Positions 920 to 46,031 of a DNA stretch of 46,031 nucleotides are shown here, piece by piece. Source of the DNA: a virus; IMG/VR virus record IMGVR_UViG_3300036820_000643, positions 1 to 46,031 of that record, one strand, 5' to 3'. Made by a program: the position numbers and the translations under genes. How positions within the stretch are numbered: position 1 is the first letter of the stretch; each line of letters begins with the position of its first letter. The notes beneath the pieces are model-generated. The model saw nothing but the letters and a program-made list of their open reading frames with translations, did not search any database and had not been told where the DNA came from.

Positions 920-1363
920 GTGGCAACGCCCGAGCAAGTCAGGGAATATAACAGGTTATACGCGCGACGCTATAGATCTATCGCCGAGAATCGACTAAAG
1001 ATCAATGCGAATATGAGGCGGCTCAAGAGGAAATGGAGAGCCACACCCGAGGGGAAGCAAAAGCTTGTTGCTATTTCTAAGAAAGCCACAACGAAGAAGC
1101 GGGACTTGATAATTAGTCACTATGGTGGAGAGTGCGCTTGCTGTGGTGAAGGGGAAAAGAGGTTCTTGGCAATCGACCATAAGAATGGCGGTGGTGCTAA
1201 GGAGCGCGCGAAAGTTGGATGGGGTACTAAGTTCTACATATGGGTAATCAAGAACGGCTACCCACCACATCTTCAGCTTCTCTGCCACAACTGTAATATG
1301 GCTAAAGCGTTTTATAAAGTTTGCCCACATACGGAAATAAAGGTCGAAGCCAACCAGCAATAA
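920..1363 (+). CDS. HNH endonuclease family protein
   Basis: A 147-residue protein. The N-terminal 65 residues are highly basic and helical. A zinc-finger HNH core follows: CACCG (C72, C75), the catalytic-type pair IDH (H87), then LCHNCN (C122, C125). This is the short phage HNH type, found as free-standing homing nucleases or packaging helpers. Being far from the terminase genes, it looks more like a mobile early gene. The GTG start fits a leaderless transcript. A homologous protein with the same architecture lies at 42842-43294. Confidence 0.8.
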   Translation: MATPEQVREYNRLYARRYRSIAENRLKINANMRRLKRKWRATPEGKQKLVAISKKATTKKRDLIISHYGGECACCGEGEKRFLAIDHKNGGGAKERAKVGWGTKFYIWVIKNGYPPHLQLLCHNCNMAKAFYKVCPHTEIKVEANQQ

Positions 1364-8033: not shown

Positions 8034-8079
8034 TCCCATTCCCGACGAAAAGGTCGAGGCAAACCTAAATATCACGACA

Positions 8080-27159: not shown

Positions 27160-27375
27160 ATGATCGACGGCGCAGACGCCCTGAACAAGGATGTCCAGCC
27201 GACGACGGTCAAGGCTGCTTCGCAACTTGAGAACGAGTACTTCTACCCCGAATCGGGCGGCTACCAGGCGATCAGCGTCCGCGCGGCCACACGCGAAGAT
27301 GCGCACGCGATCTATCTCGCAAGACGAACGCCGGTGAGTCCGGAAAAGGTCGCAGAAGAAACCCATAACGAATAA
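27160..27375 (+). CDS. Small tail-region protein, 71 aa
   Basis: A 71-residue acidic protein, not recognised, in the slot before the tail tube. SGGYQAISVRAATREDAHAIYLARRTPV suggests a small alpha/beta fold. I prefer the ATG because it follows an A-rich leader (aaaaaacaaacaaa) like its neighbours; a GTG at 27133 would add nine residues through that stretch. Confidence 0.5.
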   Translation: MIDGADALNKDVQPTTVKAASQLENEYFYPESGGYQAISVRAATREDAHAIYLARRTPVSPEKVAEETHNE

Positions 27376-35028: not shown

Positions 35029-35910
35029 ATGCCCAAGAACCTCGGCGCGAGAGAAAGAGTAAGACGACCGGATGAGCGAAAACTTGAATTGGGAGGCGCA
35101 GTTTCTACTGAGGCCCATACGCCAGTCGATCTTTCATGGCTTCAGGTTAATCAACAGAGCATTACGCCTTTCTGCGGAGAACACGCAGGAACACATCTTC
35201 AGGCGATCTTGGAATACCCAATCATTAACCGCTTCTCGCCCCGCTACGGAGTCATCAAACTGAAAACTCCTTCATCGCCCGTATATGACGGTTTTTCGAT
35301 TGAAGAGGGGACAGACATGGCTGCGATTTTCAAATGGCTCAAGACATTCGGTGCAGATCTTTATGAGCCACTGGAAAATAACGTGTCGCTGCCCTTGAAC
35401 GCGAACCAGGGGGATTATCTCGATCCCACTCAGATCACTCCCGAAATGGACACCGCCGCCAGCAATCATAAGGACATTGATTTCGCCTACAGCGACACCG
35501 TGACCTATGAAACGATCGTTCAGGCGATTCAGCACTACAAAGCAGTCATTCTTCTCATCAAATGCGATGAGGGATTCTGGGGAACCTCGAATCCCACTTT
35601 CACACAGCCGCTCTACGGCCATTTTGTCGTCGCCTATGACTACGATGCCACCGGAATCTTCGTTGTGGATTCTGCCGAGCCCAATCTTCAGTACTCCCTG
35701 AAACACATCGCAACGGAATATATTATGTCCCAGTTTTTCTTTGAACTCGGAACAGCGGTTGATGCGTTGCCAGTGGAAGTGCAGATCGTCACCGACACTA
35801 CGGATGTAGTTCAGGACGTAGCTCAAGATACGCAGGCATCACCCGCCGAGAAAGAAACACTCCTCCAGGAAGTTGAGGAAGTAGTTAAGGAAATCGAGAC
35901 CGCTCTCTAA
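35029..35910 (+). CDS. Papain-like cysteine peptidase (candidate lysis enzyme)
   Basis: A 293-residue protein. NQQSITPFCGEHAGTHL gives the glutamine and the catalytic Cys49 of a C1/C39-type peptidase. PLYGHFVVAYDYD supplies His198, and IFVVDSAEPN supplies the Asp/Asn partner. The C-terminus is an acidic helical tail. There is no signal peptide; next to membrane proteins it could cleave the cell-wall peptide and be released by a holin. A virion or host-protein protease is an alternative. Confidence 0.65.
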   Translation: MPKNLGARERVRRPDERKLELGGAVSTEAHTPVDLSWLQVNQQSITPFCGEHAGTHLQAILEYPIINRFSPRYGVIKLKTPSSPVYDGFSIEEGTDMAAIFKWLKTFGADLYEPLENNVSLPLNANQGDYLDPTQITPEMDTAASNHKDIDFAYSDTVTYETIVQAIQHYKAVILLIKCDEGFWGTSNPTFTQPLYGHFVVAYDYDATGIFVVDSAEPNLQYSLKHIATEYIMSQFFFELGTAVDALPVEVQIVTDTTDVVQDVAQDTQASPAEKETLLQEVEEVVKEIETAL

Positions 35911-35941
35911 TCCGAAAAGGTCGAAATTAATCACCACCAGA

Positions 35942-36148
35942 ATGCTTACAAAAACCCAATGGACACTCGTTGCGACTGTCATCATCGCAGTCGGAAACGC
36001 CGTCCTTCCGTTCATGTCAGCGCAGGTTTCCGGGATCGTCGTTACGATCCTTTCGGTGATCGCGTTCGCGTTCCACATCTCCGACGTGAATAACGCAGTC
36101 GCAACCGCAAAAGCGCCAGGCGCTTCCAGTACAAGCATCACCGGCTAG
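35942..36148 (+). CDS. Two-helix holin-like protein, 68 aa
   Basis: A 68-residue protein with two hydrophobic segments, TLVATVIIAVGNAVLPFMSA and GIVVTILSVIAFAFHIS, and a short polar tail. Length and topology suit a small class II holin. The adjacent peptidase supports this. A perfect AGCGCC-A-GGCGCT palindrome lies within the tail codons. Confidence 0.6.
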   Translation: MLTKTQWTLVATVIIAVGNAVLPFMSAQVSGIVVTILSVIAFAFHISDVNNAVATAKAPGASSTSITG

Positions 36149-36161
36149 TCGAACCTCCACA

Positions 36162-36328
36162 CCAGTAGCTCTCACGGACGGGGAATCCCAGATAAGCCGC
36201 GCGGCTTGCTCCTACAGGATTGCTACTGGCGTGGGCGTCCAGTTTTAACGCCGAACGTCCCGGCCTGCTTCTGTGCTTCGACCCACAGAAGTAGAGCGGG
36301 GCGCTCATGTAGTAGGGCTAACCGGCCC
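36162..36328 (+). ncRNA. Candidate multi-hairpin RNA upstream of DUF932 gene
   Basis: An outer stem CCAGTAGC (36162-36169)/GCTACTGG (36222-36229) encloses GGG-GAAT-CCC (36180-36189) and AAGCC-GCGC-GGCTT (36194-36207). Four hairpins follow: GGCGT/ACGCC (36234-36252), CTTCTGTG/CACAGAAG (36268-36291), GAGCG/CGCTC (36294-36306) and GGGC/GCCC (36315-36328). Six perfect stems plus the enclosing one in 167 bases is far more than ordinary leader DNA shows. It ends 43 bases before the DUF932 start. No known class recognised. Confidence 0.6.
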
Positions 36329-36370
36329 GGCGCTCCACCAGCACATTCCCAAATCAAAAGGAGGTTTCCT

Positions 36371-37087
36371 ATGGAAGCCCTACTCGCACATTGCGGCGCT
36401 GAAAAGCTGTCGCGCGATCAACTCGCTACCATCTTGCCACCCGAAGCGACCGACACTCACAAGCCGATCGCACACATCCAACTCGTAACTTCGCTTCTCG
36501 AATCGCTCTCTTTCAGGCATATCAATGTCGTGAAAGAGGAGCATGCGGTCTCTCAGGATGGCATGAAGCTCTTCGGAGTCATGGATCTCGAAACGACGGG
36601 AGACGGTTTTCGCTTTTCGCTCGGGCTTCGAAATTCAAACGACAAATCCATGCGGCTTGGACTCGTTGTCGGAGTCCGCGTTTTCTGCTGCGACAACATG
36701 GCATTCTCCGGCGATTTCGAGCCGGTACTCGCCAAACACTCCAAGCATTTCGATCTCAACTCCGCTCTCGCAGTCGGGCTTGAGCAGATGCAGCGGAACT
36801 TCAAACCGATGGCCGATCAGATTGAAAACTGGCGCGCTGCGCAGATCACCGATGGACAAGCGAAAGAGATCATCTATCGCGCGTTCATCGAGGACGAGCT
36901 CGACGCACCAAAACACCTGGCCCGGGTCATCCACCACGAGTACTTTGAGCCAGCGTTCCCGGACTTCGCGCCCAGGACGAAATGGAGCCTGCAGAACGCT
37001 TTCACAAGCGGATTCAAGCTCCTCGAACCTGTCCCGCAATTCAAGGCGACTGCCAGCTTCGGCGAGTTCTTCAATTCCCTGAATTAG
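36371..37087 (+). CDS. DUF932 family protein
   Basis: A 238-residue protein with the DUF932 (phage/plasmid-like) pattern: VMDLETTGDGFRFSLGLRNSNDKSMRLGLVVGVRVFCCDNMAFSGD, then QRNFKPMADQIENWRAAQI, and WSLQNAFTSGFKLLE..P. Members occur on phages and plasmids and near CRISPR and other mobile systems; role unknown. AAGGAGGT lies six bases before the ATG, a perfect site absent from the structural genes. A structured RNA precedes it. Confidence 0.8.
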   Translation: MEALLAHCGAEKLSRDQLATILPPEATDTHKPIAHIQLVTSLLESLSFRHINVVKEEHAVSQDGMKLFGVMDLETTGDGFRFSLGLRNSNDKSMRLGLVVGVRVFCCDNMAFSGDFEPVLAKHSKHFDLNSALAVGLEQMQRNFKPMADQIENWRAAQITDGQAKEIIYRAFIEDELDAPKHLARVIHHEYFEPAFPDFAPRTKWSLQNAFTSGFKLLEPVPQFKATASFGEFFNSLN

Positions 37088-37593: not shown

Positions 37594-37965
37594 ATGGCAG
37601 ACGCTAAAAGGCCCATCGTCTTCGTGGTCGATGACGAGAGCATCATTTCAGAGACGCTCGCGATGATACTCAATATGTCTGGGTTTGATGCCACCGGCTT
37701 CGTGAGCGCGTATAAGGCGCTGCAGCAAGCCTTGATCAGGCCCCCCGACTTGCTCATCACCGACGTCGTGATGCCCGAAATGAATGGCGTCGAACTGGCA
37801 ATCGAGTTCAAATCTGCCTACCCCGAATGCAAGATATTGCTATTTTCCGGCCAGTACGCCACCACCGATCTATTAAGGGATGCCGCTGACGAAGGCCACG
37901 ATTTCCATATACTCGCGAAGCCCGTCCACCCGAAGGAACTCATCGCCGCGATCAAAAAGCTCTAA
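37594..37965 (+). CDS. Stand-alone response-regulator receiver (CheY-like)
   Basis: A 123-residue receiver domain with all key residues: VVDDE (D13, D14), LLITDVVMP (phospho-acceptor D57), LLFSGQ (S85) and AKPVHP (K109). There is no output domain, so it would act by protein contact. The ILLFSGQ..TTDLL and GHDFHILAKPVHPKEL phrases are, from memory, typical of Acidobacteriota. It has its own promoter next to a terminator, as expected of a gene expressed in the lysogen. It may modulate host signalling. Confidence 0.8.
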   Translation: MADAKRPIVFVVDDESIISETLAMILNMSGFDATGFVSAYKALQQALIRPPDLLITDVVMPEMNGVELAIEFKSAYPECKILLFSGQYATTDLLRDAADEGHDFHILAKPVHPKELIAAIKKL

Positions 37966-40610: not shown

Positions 40611-42611
40611 TTAGAGCGTATGTGAATGTGCCTTCGTGGCGGCTTCTCCGATCGCCTTCACAATTGCTTCGACAGTCTGCGATTTCTTTCCCACTGACGC
40701 TGCTGACTTCAATACTGCTTCGAAGAAGACTGGATTCTTCAGCGCATACATCTTTTTCTGAATTCCCATGCTCTTGCAACATTCCTCTATCGTCTTGTCA
40801 TAAAGTTCCGGACCGATTTCATCGCGCAATGTCGCTTCGAGATTCACGTGGAAACATGTGTGCACGGCTGAGACACCACTCGGCCAATCTTCGGCCATCT
40901 GCTTACAAATGTTCAGCAAACGTCTATTCGCCTTCTTGCAATTCTCTTCAGTGCCTTTTTCCTTCGCATCATACGTTCGATGGTCGCCGTCCCAAATCAG
41001 GTATGTAGGAATGCCCAACGTTTCGAAAATGAGCGCCGGCCGGTCCATGTTAGGCTTTCCCAGGCATGGAATAACGGTGCATCCAAGGGATTCCAGATCA
41101 ATGCCATTGAGCTCTGCCACGCCGAGGATCGCCGCCCTATCATCTTCTCCTTCGACCAAAACGACCATGTCGGCAAAGAACCCTTCGTTCATCCATGGCG
41201 TCATCACAGTGGCGGCTCGATCTTTCAAAACTGCGCCAGTGTATTTTGGATTCGGGCTACCATCGGCAATCCACAAAACCGCGGCCAGTGCGTCCCAATC
41301 TGTTTCAGCGACCTTCGAAATCTTTGGCAGGTCCTTTTCACCCGGCCTGCGCGTGACCCGGCGCACTTGATTGAATCGATCAATATCTACAAGCAAAGCG
41401 GAATGTGTGGCGTAAAGAATCTGAGTACGATCCGCCACACCTGCGATCTCACCATACGCTAGATGAAGCAAAAGGCGAGCGAAGTGCCTCTGGCGGCTCG
41501 GATGTTGGTAAAGCTCGGGCTCCTCGATCCCAATGATCAAGTTCAACTTCGATCGTGTTTCTTTTTTCGTGCTTTCCTCGCCTGATCGTTCCGACTCCTC
41601 TTGCGATTCTTTCTTTGGGTTCGAAGCAACTGCAAGATGTTGGAGCAGGGTTAGAATGAACGCTCTTTGAAGGCCATGTCCCATCCTAGTCACCGGCAAC
41701 TCGAAATTGCCTTCGACGATTCGTACATCTGCCTTCGGCATTGGGAGATCTATATCCGCTGCCTTCAACCAATCGATCTTCACCGACGTGTCTGGATAGT
41801 ACTGGCCGAGTGTGCCAGATAGATTGCCGGACAATTGACCCAACTCAGGAAGATTGGCCGGATCAGTTAGCACGGTATATCTCGTGCGAATATCAGACTT
41901 GAGTTCCGCAAATTCTCTTCGATTCGTCAATGTTGCTCTCACTACAAGATCCATCAAAGCAGTGATCGCAGATGCGCGCCCTTCATTAACATCCTCCGCG
42001 GCATCGCGGACCGCCGGAATAAATAAAAACCGCGTGAGATCGCCGAGATAACCTCGCCCAACATTTGTGAACCCAAAAAATTGACCTTCATCTCGACCTA
42101 GTTGCAGCTTTTCTGAATTGTTCGCCTCCCACTCATCCATCGCCGCTTTAGCATCATCTTGAGAGCCGGCGTTTGGCATTCCATAGCCCTTTTCCTCATT
42201 TACGGACTTGTACAGCTTCGTCAATTCCCTGCCAGTCAGCGCCCGAATTTTTTCGAATTCTGGATTCTGCAATTTGAATCCGTACAGCTTCCCCGACGTC
42301 TTGCCGCTGGAAATTGAGAGAACGCGCAGGACTTGAAGCTCATCTCCCGACATTCGCTCTTTGAATCGCTCAATTTCTTCAGTCGTCAAATTGTTAAACG
42401 TAACCGCAATTTCGATTTCTCTGGTAGTGTCGTGGTTGTAAAAGTCGTCGAGCACCACGATCGGCGTCGCCGCGTAGAACAATTCGAGCGCCCGAAGGAA
42501 CGAAGACTTTCCCGCACCATTCGGTCCAACCAGCACAGTCAGCGATTCGCAATTAAGGGTTTCATTGAGCAAAGAGCGAAAATTCGACACCCGGACTGAT
42601 TTTATGATCAT
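40611..42611 (-). CDS. OLD family ATP-dependent nuclease (AAA + TOPRIM)
   Basis: A 666-residue protein. Walker A is GPNGAGKS (29-36), a signature-like GHGLQRA follows at 311-317 and Walker B is IIGIEEPE (359-366), an ABC/SMC-type ATPase. The C-terminal TOPRIM nuclease has VVLVEGEDDRAAI (E487) and LIWDGD (D541, D543). OLD proteins of prophages such as P2 exclude other phages. GGAGGT stands seven bases before the chosen ATG (a longer reading is a shadow). There is no adjacent UvrD helicase, so it is a single-gene type rather than Gabija. Confidence 0.88.
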   Translation of the reverse strand: MIIKSVRVSNFRSLLNETLNCESLTVLVGPNGAGKSSFLRALELFYAATPIVVLDDFYNHDTTREIEIAVTFNNLTTEEIERFKERMSGDELQVLRVLSISSGKTSGKLYGFKLQNPEFEKIRALTGRELTKLYKSVNEEKGYGMPNAGSQDDAKAAMDEWEANNSEKLQLGRDEGQFFGFTNVGRGYLGDLTRFLFIPAVRDAAEDVNEGRASAITALMDLVVRATLTNRREFAELKSDIRTRYTVLTDPANLPELGQLSGNLSGTLGQYYPDTSVKIDWLKAADIDLPMPKADVRIVEGNFELPVTRMGHGLQRAFILTLLQHLAVASNPKKESQEESERSGEESTKKETRSKLNLIIGIEEPELYQHPSRQRHFARLLLHLAYGEIAGVADRTQILYATHSALLVDIDRFNQVRRVTRRPGEKDLPKISKVAETDWDALAAVLWIADGSPNPKYTGAVLKDRAATVMTPWMNEGFFADMVVLVEGEDDRAAILGVAELNGIDLESLGCTVIPCLGKPNMDRPALIFETLGIPTYLIWDGDHRTYDAKEKGTEENCKKANRRLLNICKQMAEDWPSGVSAVHTCFHVNLEATLRDEIGPELYDKTIEECCKSMGIQKKMYALKNPVFFEAVLKSAASVGKKSQTVEAIVKAIGEAATKAHSHTL

Positions 42612-42694
42612 TGATGCAACCTCCGGAGAACTCGGCACAAAGTCTACCAGATAAAACATTCGCCGTAACGAGATTAAGTTATCCCCAGGTCCCC

Positions 42695-42838
42695 TTGCGC
42701 TTTTCCTTGAATGCTTCATAATTCATGGGTCCTTCACTGGACGGCCGAGTCGCCCGATAACCTTTTGGCGGGCAGCTCTAGATAGTGCGGGGAAACCCAA
42801 ACTTGAAAGAGCTCTCGGCCAAAGGGTTTTTCTTTTCT
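42695..42838 (+). ncRNA. Candidate RNA leader/attenuator upstream of HNH gene
   Basis: TTGCGC (42695-42700) and CATAAT (42717-42722), 16 bases apart, resemble a promoter. Downstream, AACCTTTTGGC (42759-42769) pairs with GCCAAAGGGTT (42818-42828) with one G-U. AGCTC (42774-42778) pairs with GAGCT (42809-42813), and GGG-GAAA-CCC (42789-42798) forms a GNRA hairpin. A U-rich run (ttttcttttctt) follows. It resembles an attenuator placed three bases before the HNH ATG. Confidence 0.45.
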
Positions 42839-43726: not shown

Positions 43727-44044
43727 ATGAAACATCTCAATAAAGTCAGTAAGAATGTTGTCGAGAAATCGATTCAAGATTGGTATTTCGCAAATGGGTT
43801 TCAATCGCTAAAGAGCGGATGGCCAGATTTCGTGTTCTGGAAAAAATCGCCCGACGGGAAAACGATCTATCAATTCGTCGAAGTGAAACAACACACGAAC
43901 GACAATATCCGCAATAATCAACGAAAGGTCAAAAACATCTTCCGATCACTCAACCTCGATTATCGTGTCGCGTATGGAATCACCCCTGATGGATCGCCAA
44001 ACTTCGAGAGCCGCACAGGAGTAAATAGCCATATCAAAAAATGA
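43727..44044 (+). CDS. VRR-NUC-like nuclease
   Basis: A 105-residue protein: SVEKSIQDWYF-type helix (VVEKSIQDWYFANGF), then SGWPDFVFWKK (PD motif), FVEVKQHTNDNIRNNQRKVKNIF (EVK motif) and YRVAYGITPDG. This is a compact PD-(D/E)XK fold of the VRR-NUC type, found alone in many phages. Such enzymes resolve or nick branched DNA. It sits after operator-like repeats beside the likely conflict gene. Confidence 0.75.
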   Translation: MKHLNKVSKNVVEKSIQDWYFANGFQSLKSGWPDFVFWKKSPDGKTIYQFVEVKQHTNDNIRNNQRKVKNIFRSLNLDYRVAYGITPDGSPNFESRTGVNSHIKK

Positions 44045-44128: not shown

Positions 44129-44965
44129 ATGGTCGATCCCAAGAAATGGAAAATCGCTCGCTCGCGTCTACACGCGCTTCGAGATCACCTGCCCCTCCGT
44201 CCAGGACACCCCGAGGTTGCGGACTATCACAGCCTCATTGATGCCCTTGAAGCGGCGTCAGGAGAAGAACTCAACGAATTTCGAATCAATCTTGGCTCTA
44301 TGAAGCCGCGCAGGACCAGTATAAGAATTGGCGGTCAGTATTCTCCGGGCAGGGATGAGTGGAGTAGTGAAGTGTATGCCGATTCTGTGGTATTTAAACG
44401 CCAGGTGGAGGGACTTTCTTCATATGTCGCGTCGATTGAAATGGAATCTCATTCTGCGACGCCGTCAGTGCCAAACGATTATTGGGCAATGACCACCCCA
44501 CAACTTGAAGCACTGGCGGACAAGTACCAGATCGGCGGCTATGGAGATCAGCGCGGCTATACTGATCGTGAGATCATTATTCGGGCTCTTCTAAATAGAG
44601 ACAGAGCGATCAACCCTCACAAACCAGTGTCGCAGCACACGATCAATGTCGGAACGATGACCGGCTCTGCGATTCAAGCTGGGACACAGGAGTCGCACAT
44701 CACGATCAATTTCGCCGGCAATGAAGTTCAAAGCTTGGTTCGGAAGATTCGTGCCTCAATGGATGAGATCGAATTGGGCGACGGGGCAAAGGCTGAAATG
44801 AACGCGGATCTCGCCACAATTGAAACACAACTCCAATCGCCACACCCGAAGTCGATCATAATTTCGGAATGCCTCAGTACGATCAAGACGATCCTGTTAG
44901 GAGTAGTTGGAAGCCTGATCGCGACGGGTTTGGCAGCGGAGATCGCGAATCTCCTCAAGAAATAG
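44129..44965 (+). CDS. Two-part predicted conflict/abortive-infection protein
   Basis: A 278-residue protein. The N-terminal 60 residues (KWKIARSRLHALRDHLPL..VADYHSLIDALEAASGEELNEFRI) are helical and followed by SMKPRR. The C-terminal 110 residues (HTINVGTMTGSAIQAGTQESHITINF, LVRKIRASMDEIELGD, IETQLQSPHPKSIIISECLSTIKTIL, VVGSLIATGLAAEIANLL) match, from memory, a module common in proteins of the AbiTii group. A membrane-inserting hydrophobic tail is visible. It is probably a defence or exclusion effector; that is inferred. Confidence 0.55.
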   Translation: MVDPKKWKIARSRLHALRDHLPLRPGHPEVADYHSLIDALEAASGEELNEFRINLGSMKPRRTSIRIGGQYSPGRDEWSSEVYADSVVFKRQVEGLSSYVASIEMESHSATPSVPNDYWAMTTPQLEALADKYQIGGYGDQRGYTDREIIIRALLNRDRAINPHKPVSQHTINVGTMTGSAIQAGTQESHITINFAGNEVQSLVRKIRASMDEIELGDGAKAEMNADLATIETQLQSPHPKSIIISECLSTIKTILLGVVGSLIATGLAAEIANLLKK

Positions 44966-46031
44966 CTGATCTCCACGTTCCCTTCACCGCCGCTTCGAGC
45001 GCGGTCTGGCGTGCCTGAACCCAGGGCGCATAGTGTTTTTCTGTCGTCTTGATCGAAGTATGCCCCAGGAGCTTTGAAACGACATCGAGTGGCACACCTT
45101 TCGAAAGTAGATCGACACTGAAGGTATCGCGCAGCCGGTGTGAATGGCCGTCAGGAATTCCGGCAAATTCATAGACCAATTTCAAACGCTGCTGCCATTC
45201 CGTGATGCAGCTTTTAGGCTTCCCGATCTGATCGTAGAAAAGGAATTCCTTTCCCTCATCCACCATTTCGATTGCCTTTACGACTTTCCCAGGCACCGGA
45301 ACCCATACCGGCTGTTTCGTCTTTTCCTGTCGGAGAAACACCTTAGCGTCATTTAATTGCGCCGGACGGAACATGCACGCGTCGGAAATCCGAAGTCCCG
45401 CGTAGCGCATAAGGAGAATGAGGGCTAGCAGTTTCGCCGGCGTTTTCTCCGGGATTTTCGGATGCGCCTCACGGATAAATTCCACAGCCCATAGGATTTT
45501 CTCCATTTCCTCATCCGTAAATGGGAGTGTCGGCATGTACTTAGCCGGAGGCAGCTTCACCAGTTTCGCCGGATTGCGGTCGAGCCACTCCGAATCGACG
45601 CAGAAGGCGAAGAACTTTCTCACGCGCTCCAGGCGCTTTTGCGTGGTGAGGGGTGCCAGCTTCCACCCTTCCTTGATCCGCCGGATTTGATCTACCGTGA
45701 CATTCCGTACCGGCACGGTTCCCACGGCCTCTTTCAGCTCGTCCACGACCTTCTGATATTTTCCGAGCTGCGCGGCCCCCAAGTTCGCCGATTTACGATC
45801 CGCCATGAAGCGATCGGCGGCGTCGCTTACCAGCACCGGTTTCTTTCCCTGAATCTCCCAATCGCGCACGAGTTTCTGCGCGGCCTCCCAGCTTCGGAGA
45901 TCCAACGATTGCCGCACCAAGGCACCCTGCAATTTCCCCTCAACCGTAAGCGGGCAATTGCAATGCCGGTGCTTGCGCCCCTTCCCAGCGAACTTGCAAC
46001 TCTTGAAATGCCGCCTGAAAATCGTGAGCAT
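44955..46031 (-). CDS. int: Tyrosine recombinase (phage integrase)
   Basis: A 358-residue site-specific recombinase. Residues 8-26 form a Cys/His cluster (RRHFKSC, HRHCNC), unusual for generic phage integrases but typical of acidobacterial ones I remember. Residues about 65-165 are the core-binding domain. The catalytic set is R214 (AGLRISDAC), a Lys near 237-239, H298 and R301 (HSHRLRDTF), H324 (LGHTSIKTT) and the nucleophile Y334 (KHYAPW). It starts exactly at the window edge, so its upstream region and the att site are unseen. It overlaps the preceding gene end by 11 bases. Confidence 0.92.
   Translation of the reverse strand: MLTIFRRHFKSCKFAGKGRKHRHCNCPLTVEGKLQGALVRQSLDLRSWEAAQKLVRDWEIQGKKPVLVSDAADRFMADRKSANLGAAQLGKYQKVVDELKEAVGTVPVRNVTVDQIRRIKEGWKLAPLTTQKRLERVRKFFAFCVDSEWLDRNPAKLVKLPPAKYMPTLPFTDEEMEKILWAVEFIREAHPKIPEKTPAKLLALILLMRYAGLRISDACMFRPAQLNDAKVFLRQEKTKQPVWVPVPGKVVKAIEMVDEGKEFLFYDQIGKPKSCITEWQQRLKLVYEFAGIPDGHSHRLRDTFSVDLLSKGVPLDVVSKLLGHTSIKTTEKHYAPWVQARQTALEAAVKGTWRSAIS

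Follow-up and report, generated by a model that had tools for sequence, protein, structure and literature searches.

Between two lysis-type genes and a gene of the DUF932 family, the analysed window (the whole IMG/VR record, 46,031 bases) carries a block of short hairpins (36149-36370), which raises the question whether this block represents a functional RNA and, if so, on what it acts. A sequence-only reading had drawn six perfect hairpins and an outer stem here, and every one of them was found in place (Table 1). Folding energy, proposed with that reading as a check, spoke in its favour, since the block has a minimum free energy (MFE) of -91.8 kcal/mol, whereas dinucleotide shuffles lie at -74.1 ± 4.7 kcal/mol (z = -3.78), 0 of 200 reaching the value of the block.

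Table 1 Coordinates of the hairpin block, its neighbouring genes and leader motifs in the window
Feature	Position	Strand	Remarks
AAAGGTCGAA leader	1339..1348	+	58-aa membrane-like ORF, start 1368
AAAGGTCG leader (AAAGGTCGAGG)	8049..8056	+	ORF MDYEAAPEGG..., start 8080
AAAGGTCG leader (AAAGGTCGCAG)	27345..27352	+	tail-protein ORF, start 27378
Peptidase-like ORF	35029-35910		lysis-type; by eye
Leader motif AAAGGTCGAA of holin-like ORF	35916..35925	+	26 nt before ATG
GGTCGAA in holin leader	35919-35925	+	exact complement of hairpin loop
Holin-like small membrane ORF, 68 aa	35942..36148	+	lysis-type; two hydrophobic stretches by eye
Module A (optional)	36148..36236	+	starts at stop codon of holin-like ORF
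Outer stem of module A	36162-36169 / 36222-36229	+	CCAGTAGC / GCTACTGG
Hairpins in module A	36180-36189 and 36194-36207	+	palindromic
Linker hairpin GGCGT...ACGCC	36234-36252	+	module A to core; fold and z-score analysis
Core hairpin P3	36253-36306	+	covariation; z-scores
P3 base	36253-36260 / 36299-36306	+	GAACGTCC pairs with GGGCGCTC
P3 upper stem	36268-36275 / 36284-36291	+	hairpin 36268-36291
Apical loop of P3	36276-36283	+	CTTCGACC; unpaired probability 1.0
GAGCG-GGG-CGCTC	36294-36306	+	hairpin of the sequence-only reading
Competing helix P4	36298-36336	+	GGGGCGCT 36298-36305 with GGCGCTCC 36329-36336
Hairpin inside P4	36315-36328	+	
Leader of next gene, conserved	36337-36370	+	Shine-Dalgarno (SD) AAGGAGGT 36358-36365
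DUF932 gene, 238 aa	36371..37087	+	ATG 36371; next gene downstream

The stems are thus present, but they do not form a single unit: the aligned upstream DNA of DUF932 relatives, collected from viral contigs at 97 % down to about 30 % identity, splits into two units, i.e., the optional module A and a core hairpin (P3) forming the conserved 3' half of the block. About 20 related viral contigs have the core ahead of their DUF932 gene, with the layout GAACGTCC - variable stem - (C/A/T)(T)TTCGACC - variable stem - GGGCGCTC. TTCGACC is identical in all 19 aligned rows and predicted to be fully unpaired and accessible, with the stem sequence free to change; a longer loop occurs in three contigs (L055, L059, L067), and L063 is devoid of the loop. 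The drawn hairpin GAGCG-GGG-CGCTC shares bases with the closing helix GAACGTCC/GGGCGCTC, for which the support is better, and is not likely to be real.

Covariation of the stems in relatives, the other check proposed beforehand, is evident from double-sided changes in 13 of the 14 P3 pairs (19 sequences). The corresponding score is 0.581, compared to 0.207 ± 0.026 upon shuffling and at most 0.197 with slid partners, and refers to the closing 8-mers plus the six loop-adjacent pairs (variable mid-stem excluded), of which the inner six were set by their position beside the loop, while manual choice of the outer 8-mers biases this latter half of the test toward structure. The inner six pairs comprise 101 Watson-Crick, 9 G.U and 3 A.C cells, two of the A.C cells stemming from one short-stemmed sequence; the presence of G.U and the scarcity of A.C indicate that P3 acts as plus-strand RNA. 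Folding energies of the core regions (window and 12 relatives, n = 13) correspond to z-scores of -3.3 to -8.1.

Searches against Rfam 15 yielded no family at gathering score and nothing credible at E ≤ 5 for the block, and no match for the loci of 11 relatives; ARAGORN predicted no tRNA or tmRNA genes. A coding explanation was rejected, as the frame that stays open across the block in the window (36206-37087) contains stop codons in relatives, L053 and L054 among them. In the literature, neither a description of the hairpin RNA nor a function for DUF932 was found. The earlier impression that the block belongs to no recognised RNA class thus holds for a strongly covarying structured RNA, which is real, evolutionarily conserved and in no catalogue.

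A possible target emerges from the loop. TTCGACC is the reverse complement of GGTCGAA, part of a phage-wide motif, AAAGGTCGAA, a match noticed after the fact. Since this complement stands before the neighbouring holin-like ORF, whole contigs were then examined. Across 30 related contigs, AAAGGTCGAA occurs 69 times (vs. 3 for a mirrored control) and mostly on one strand per contig, and in an unsupervised count the top four upstream 7-mers among 16,384 (AAGGTCG, AAAGGTC, AGGTCGA, GGTCGAA) tile this motif. AAAGGTCG precedes 43 of 1018 starts in 28 contigs, compared to 5.2 expected, at about -28 to -52, and typically 26-44 nt upstream of the ATG. None of these 43 leaders contains an SD sequence in its last 20 nt, whereas elsewhere AGGAG peaks at -8 to -12; the leaders are rich in A (49 %) and poor in G (10 %). 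Among the genes equipped with the leader are holin-like ORFs as well as genes for a tail protein (phrog_290), for scaffold-like proteins and for small membrane proteins. In the window, an HNH-type ORF (920-1363, by eye) lies directly upstream of, and overlaps, the AAAGGTCGAA leader at 1339.

The leader also exists on its own. In an unrelated AT-rich phage (IMGVR_UViG_3300033149_007449, L346-L348; 33 % GC; G781), AAAGGTCG leaders precede at least eight ORFs, a holin-like one included, at 30-46 nt from the ATG, and no such hairpin was found in this phage. Thus, the leaders do not need the RNA and have a function of their own; the hairpin, if it reads leaders, may have arrived after them. Judged from sequence, the leader is apparently a wider, undescribed initiation signal lacking an SD sequence. 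Other leader-only contigs found by pattern were discarded as fragments (three) or unrelated. Among bacterial genomes, AAAGGTCGAA was not enriched in most class relatives tested, and sites sampled from two genomes with higher counts were not leader-like; hence, the motif looks phage-specific.

Several observations bear on whether the loop would pair with these leaders. In the count of upstream 7-mers, TTCGACC ranks third out of the 420 orderings of its letters, the two ahead of it being registers of this motif shifted along, and the atypical loops of L055, L059 and L067 hold GACCTTT, the complement of AAAGGTC. Loop-leader duplexes are predicted at -11 to -14 kcal/mol. No joint change of loop and leader was found among the related contigs compared: L063 lost the loop and kept the leaders, and L072 (genome G021) has the loop and leaders sharing only GGTCG, none of which reads GGTCGAA. 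An apparent loop/leader covariation in L063 (GGTCGTA with TACGAC) was rejected, since L061 has the same leader and a standard loop. Genome-wide, hairpins with leader-complementary loops are not in excess (72 vs. 43-77 in controls). The position of the motif, 26-44 nt from the ATG and not at an SD sequence, makes a translational block by pairing less straightforward.

The best explanation, to which we give a chance just short of even, is a loop-antisense regulatory RNA reading SD-less leaders of the phage's own genes. A plus-strand RNA, transcribed along with the lysis/late genes or immediately afterwards, would offer UUCGACC in the loop of the core hairpin, which is read as U-turn-like because UUCG fits YUNR. 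The loop would then pair, in cis or in trans, with the 5' leader motif AAAGGUCGAA of several phage genes lacking an SD sequence, including the upstream holin-like gene, and would most likely lower or time late-gene translation. Since the exposed loop complements a tag before many phage genes, it may switch these genes by base pairing; structure, covariation, exposure of the loop, the leader motif and its complementarity to the loop are shown by the analysis, whereas pairing, sign of the effect and switch are what we infer. The RNA probably has two folded states of similar energy, as the closing strand can re-pair downstream, and this could gate presentation of the loop or release of the RNA. 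More tentatively, the locus may exemplify a new phage RNA class, i.e., a two-state hairpin beside the lysis genes that exerts post-transcriptional control of late genes (lysis, tail, scaffold) through a U-turn loop antisense to a phage-wide, SD-less leader motif. If true, one RNA would time lysis and assembly, many late genes would be marked by an SD-less leader, and an uncatalogued RNA family would be defined; these phages of soil bacteria would also possess a second kind of translation leader.

Alternatively, the hairpin could be a cis-acting 5' leader of the downstream gene, functioning as bistable switch or protein-binding operator (perhaps bound by DUF932 itself), with the loop-leader match being coincidental. 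It does lie in the leader of a gene with conserved SD and start, and it has the classic layout of a switch, namely two mutually exclusive helices of nearly equal energy. The closing strand GGGCGCTC of P3 can instead pair downstream with GAGCGCCC and variants, and the resulting helix P4 excludes the P3 base, encloses the hairpin listed inside it in Table 1 and covaries with a score of 0.277 vs. 0.167, i.e., more weakly than P3. In 8 of the 13 sequences, the best structure with a freed 5' strand costs 1.5-4 kcal/mol relative to the MFE; in three (L063, L061, L053) it coincides with the MFE, while L070 and L066 clearly prefer the P3 base. Across these 13 sequences, two alternative folds are therefore common, not universal. 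However, the SD sequence is covered by neither helix, and the loop, the most conserved part, stands outside the switch. In the window, module A offers the SD sequence GGAGGTT a possible pairing partner, AACCTCC, at its 5' edge, but this partner varies to AACTTCC or AACATCC without matched change of the SD sequence.

The nature of the downstream gene also bears on this alternative. The DUF932 gene is genuine (PF06067, 29.7 bits, cut-off 23), and the predicted model of its product matches other DUF932 phage proteins in BFVD, with no solved relative retrieved by structure search; no confident family could be assigned to the 68-aa holin-like ORF upstream. In the DUF932 tree, the hairpin is confined to one clade plus L075, in accordance with a cis-acting leader, but the gene downstream of the hairpin varies (DUF932, HTH ORF, methyltransferase, HNH). 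The suggestion that the RNA is partner, sensor or regulator of DUF932 found positional support only, because an HTH-like ORF (L063, L061, L059) or a methyltransferase (L065) intervenes between core and DUF932 and many distant DUF932 homologues lack the hairpin; as targets, the sequence evidence favours the AAAGGTCGAA leaders instead. The 80 DUF932 loci, some of them from duplicate contigs, comprise 18 with hairpin and leader, 2 with hairpin only, 8 with leader only and 52 with neither, a co-occurrence that speaks for the loop-antisense reading but is confounded by shared ancestry. Taken together, we regard a cis-acting leader as rather unlikely. Beside the DUF932 operon, a stand-alone response-regulator receiver domain (PF00072, E = 9e-19) is encoded at 37594-37965.

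Still less probable is a hairpin whose loop is kept for a phage or host RNA-binding protein or for a T-loop-like fold (UUCGA) making tertiary contacts, for example to give the lysis transcript a stable 3' end. Protein-bound hairpins, too, would show an unchanging loop above a covarying stem, TTCGACC fits the T-loop consensus, and the hairpin is located directly 3' of lysis-type genes. Left unexplained would be why the loop exactly complements the leader motif with the strongest enrichment, and why the long loops contain GACCTTT. Direct reading of the bases in the window also shows that the core hairpin is not followed by the T run of an intrinsic terminator.

An element working at the DNA level through its palindromes, as a linker for recombination or a hotspot for homing where phage modules meet, is very improbable for the locus as a whole, but may apply to module A alone. 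This module is 92 % identical across 13 contigs, missing from many others in which the remainder is retained and, like the long loops, patchy on the DUF932 tree; no copy was found in phage and plasmid records. Its two hairpins are perfect palindromes, loops included (GGGANTCCC or GGACNGTCC; AAGCCGCGCGGCTT), and could serve RNA dimerisation or act as DNA. HNH endonucleases, the methyltransferase and other genes are inserted at the locus, the HNH ORFs of L041, L062 and L052 exactly between module A and core, as if homing there. The core, however, changes its sequence completely with pairing kept and shows the G.U bias of a plus-strand RNA. Pseudoknot pairing between the loop and GTCGAA at 36148 was rejected, since the latter sequence turns into GTAGAA or GTTGAG in module A with the loop unchanged, and module A is optional. 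Finally, a chance fold of GC-rich intergenic DNA can practically be dismissed: short GC-rich stems are easy to spot by eye and module A alone is barely below its shuffles (z = -1.96), but energies and covariation of the core are beyond all controls, the covariation refuting chance for this part.

The hosts are possibly Acidobacteriota, DUF932 relatives being present in 6 of 396 genomes of this phylum. When 399 genomes of one class were scanned under strict filters with the model R1, which scores some known members weakly, no credible hairpin emerged; the single match (L240) was judged spurious, lacking DUF932 and TTCGACC. An integrase-like tyrosine recombinase (44955-46031, minus strand; by eye from the translation) indicates that the phage is probably temperate. 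The window further encodes an OLD-family protein (AAA_15 plus OLD-like TOPRIM; 40611-42719, minus strand), likely a defence or exclusion gene, and nearby a VRR-NUC protein (43727-44044).

Among known systems, the c4 antisense RNA of phages P1 and P7 is closest to the proposed loop-antisense RNA: its hairpin loops are complementary to a phage mRNA at the ribosome-binding region, the translation of which they block (PMC12197685). The present RNA is similarly phage-encoded and structured, with a loop (TTCGACC) that is complementary to phage leaders (GGTCGAA) and may pair with them. In contrast to c4, it has no match in Rfam, neither for the block nor for the relatives' loci, and while c4 targets one mRNA, the loop here matches a motif that recurs before several genes of each phage, at a distance of 26-44 nt from the start. 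The leader in turn recalls the SAS/ESAS of cluster K mycobacteriophages, a short, asymmetric, host-rare repeat found in one orientation before many starts, where SAS (GGGATAGGAGCCC) includes AGGAG 3-7 bp from the start (PMC3203893). AAAGGTCGAA is likewise a short repeat before start codons of one phage group, but AAAGGTCG does not correspond to GGGATAGGAGCCC with its AGGAG 3-7 bp from the start: it lacks an SD sequence, is about 26-44 nt away behind an A-rich spacer, and a complementary hairpin exists. GOLLD and ROOL are also ornate noncoding phage-associated RNAs, but far larger and, unlike the present hairpin, contained in Rfam. In plasmid-type kissing antisense hairpins, YUNR U-turn loops expose bases for pairing, and the UUCG turn would be of this kind; those RNAs are, however, transcribed opposite their target, whereas the hairpin RNA lies on the same strand as its supposed targets. 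By our judgement, the hairpin, failing the sequence tests for c4 and SAS alike, represents a new RNA family that would work most like c4 and whose leader recalls SAS.
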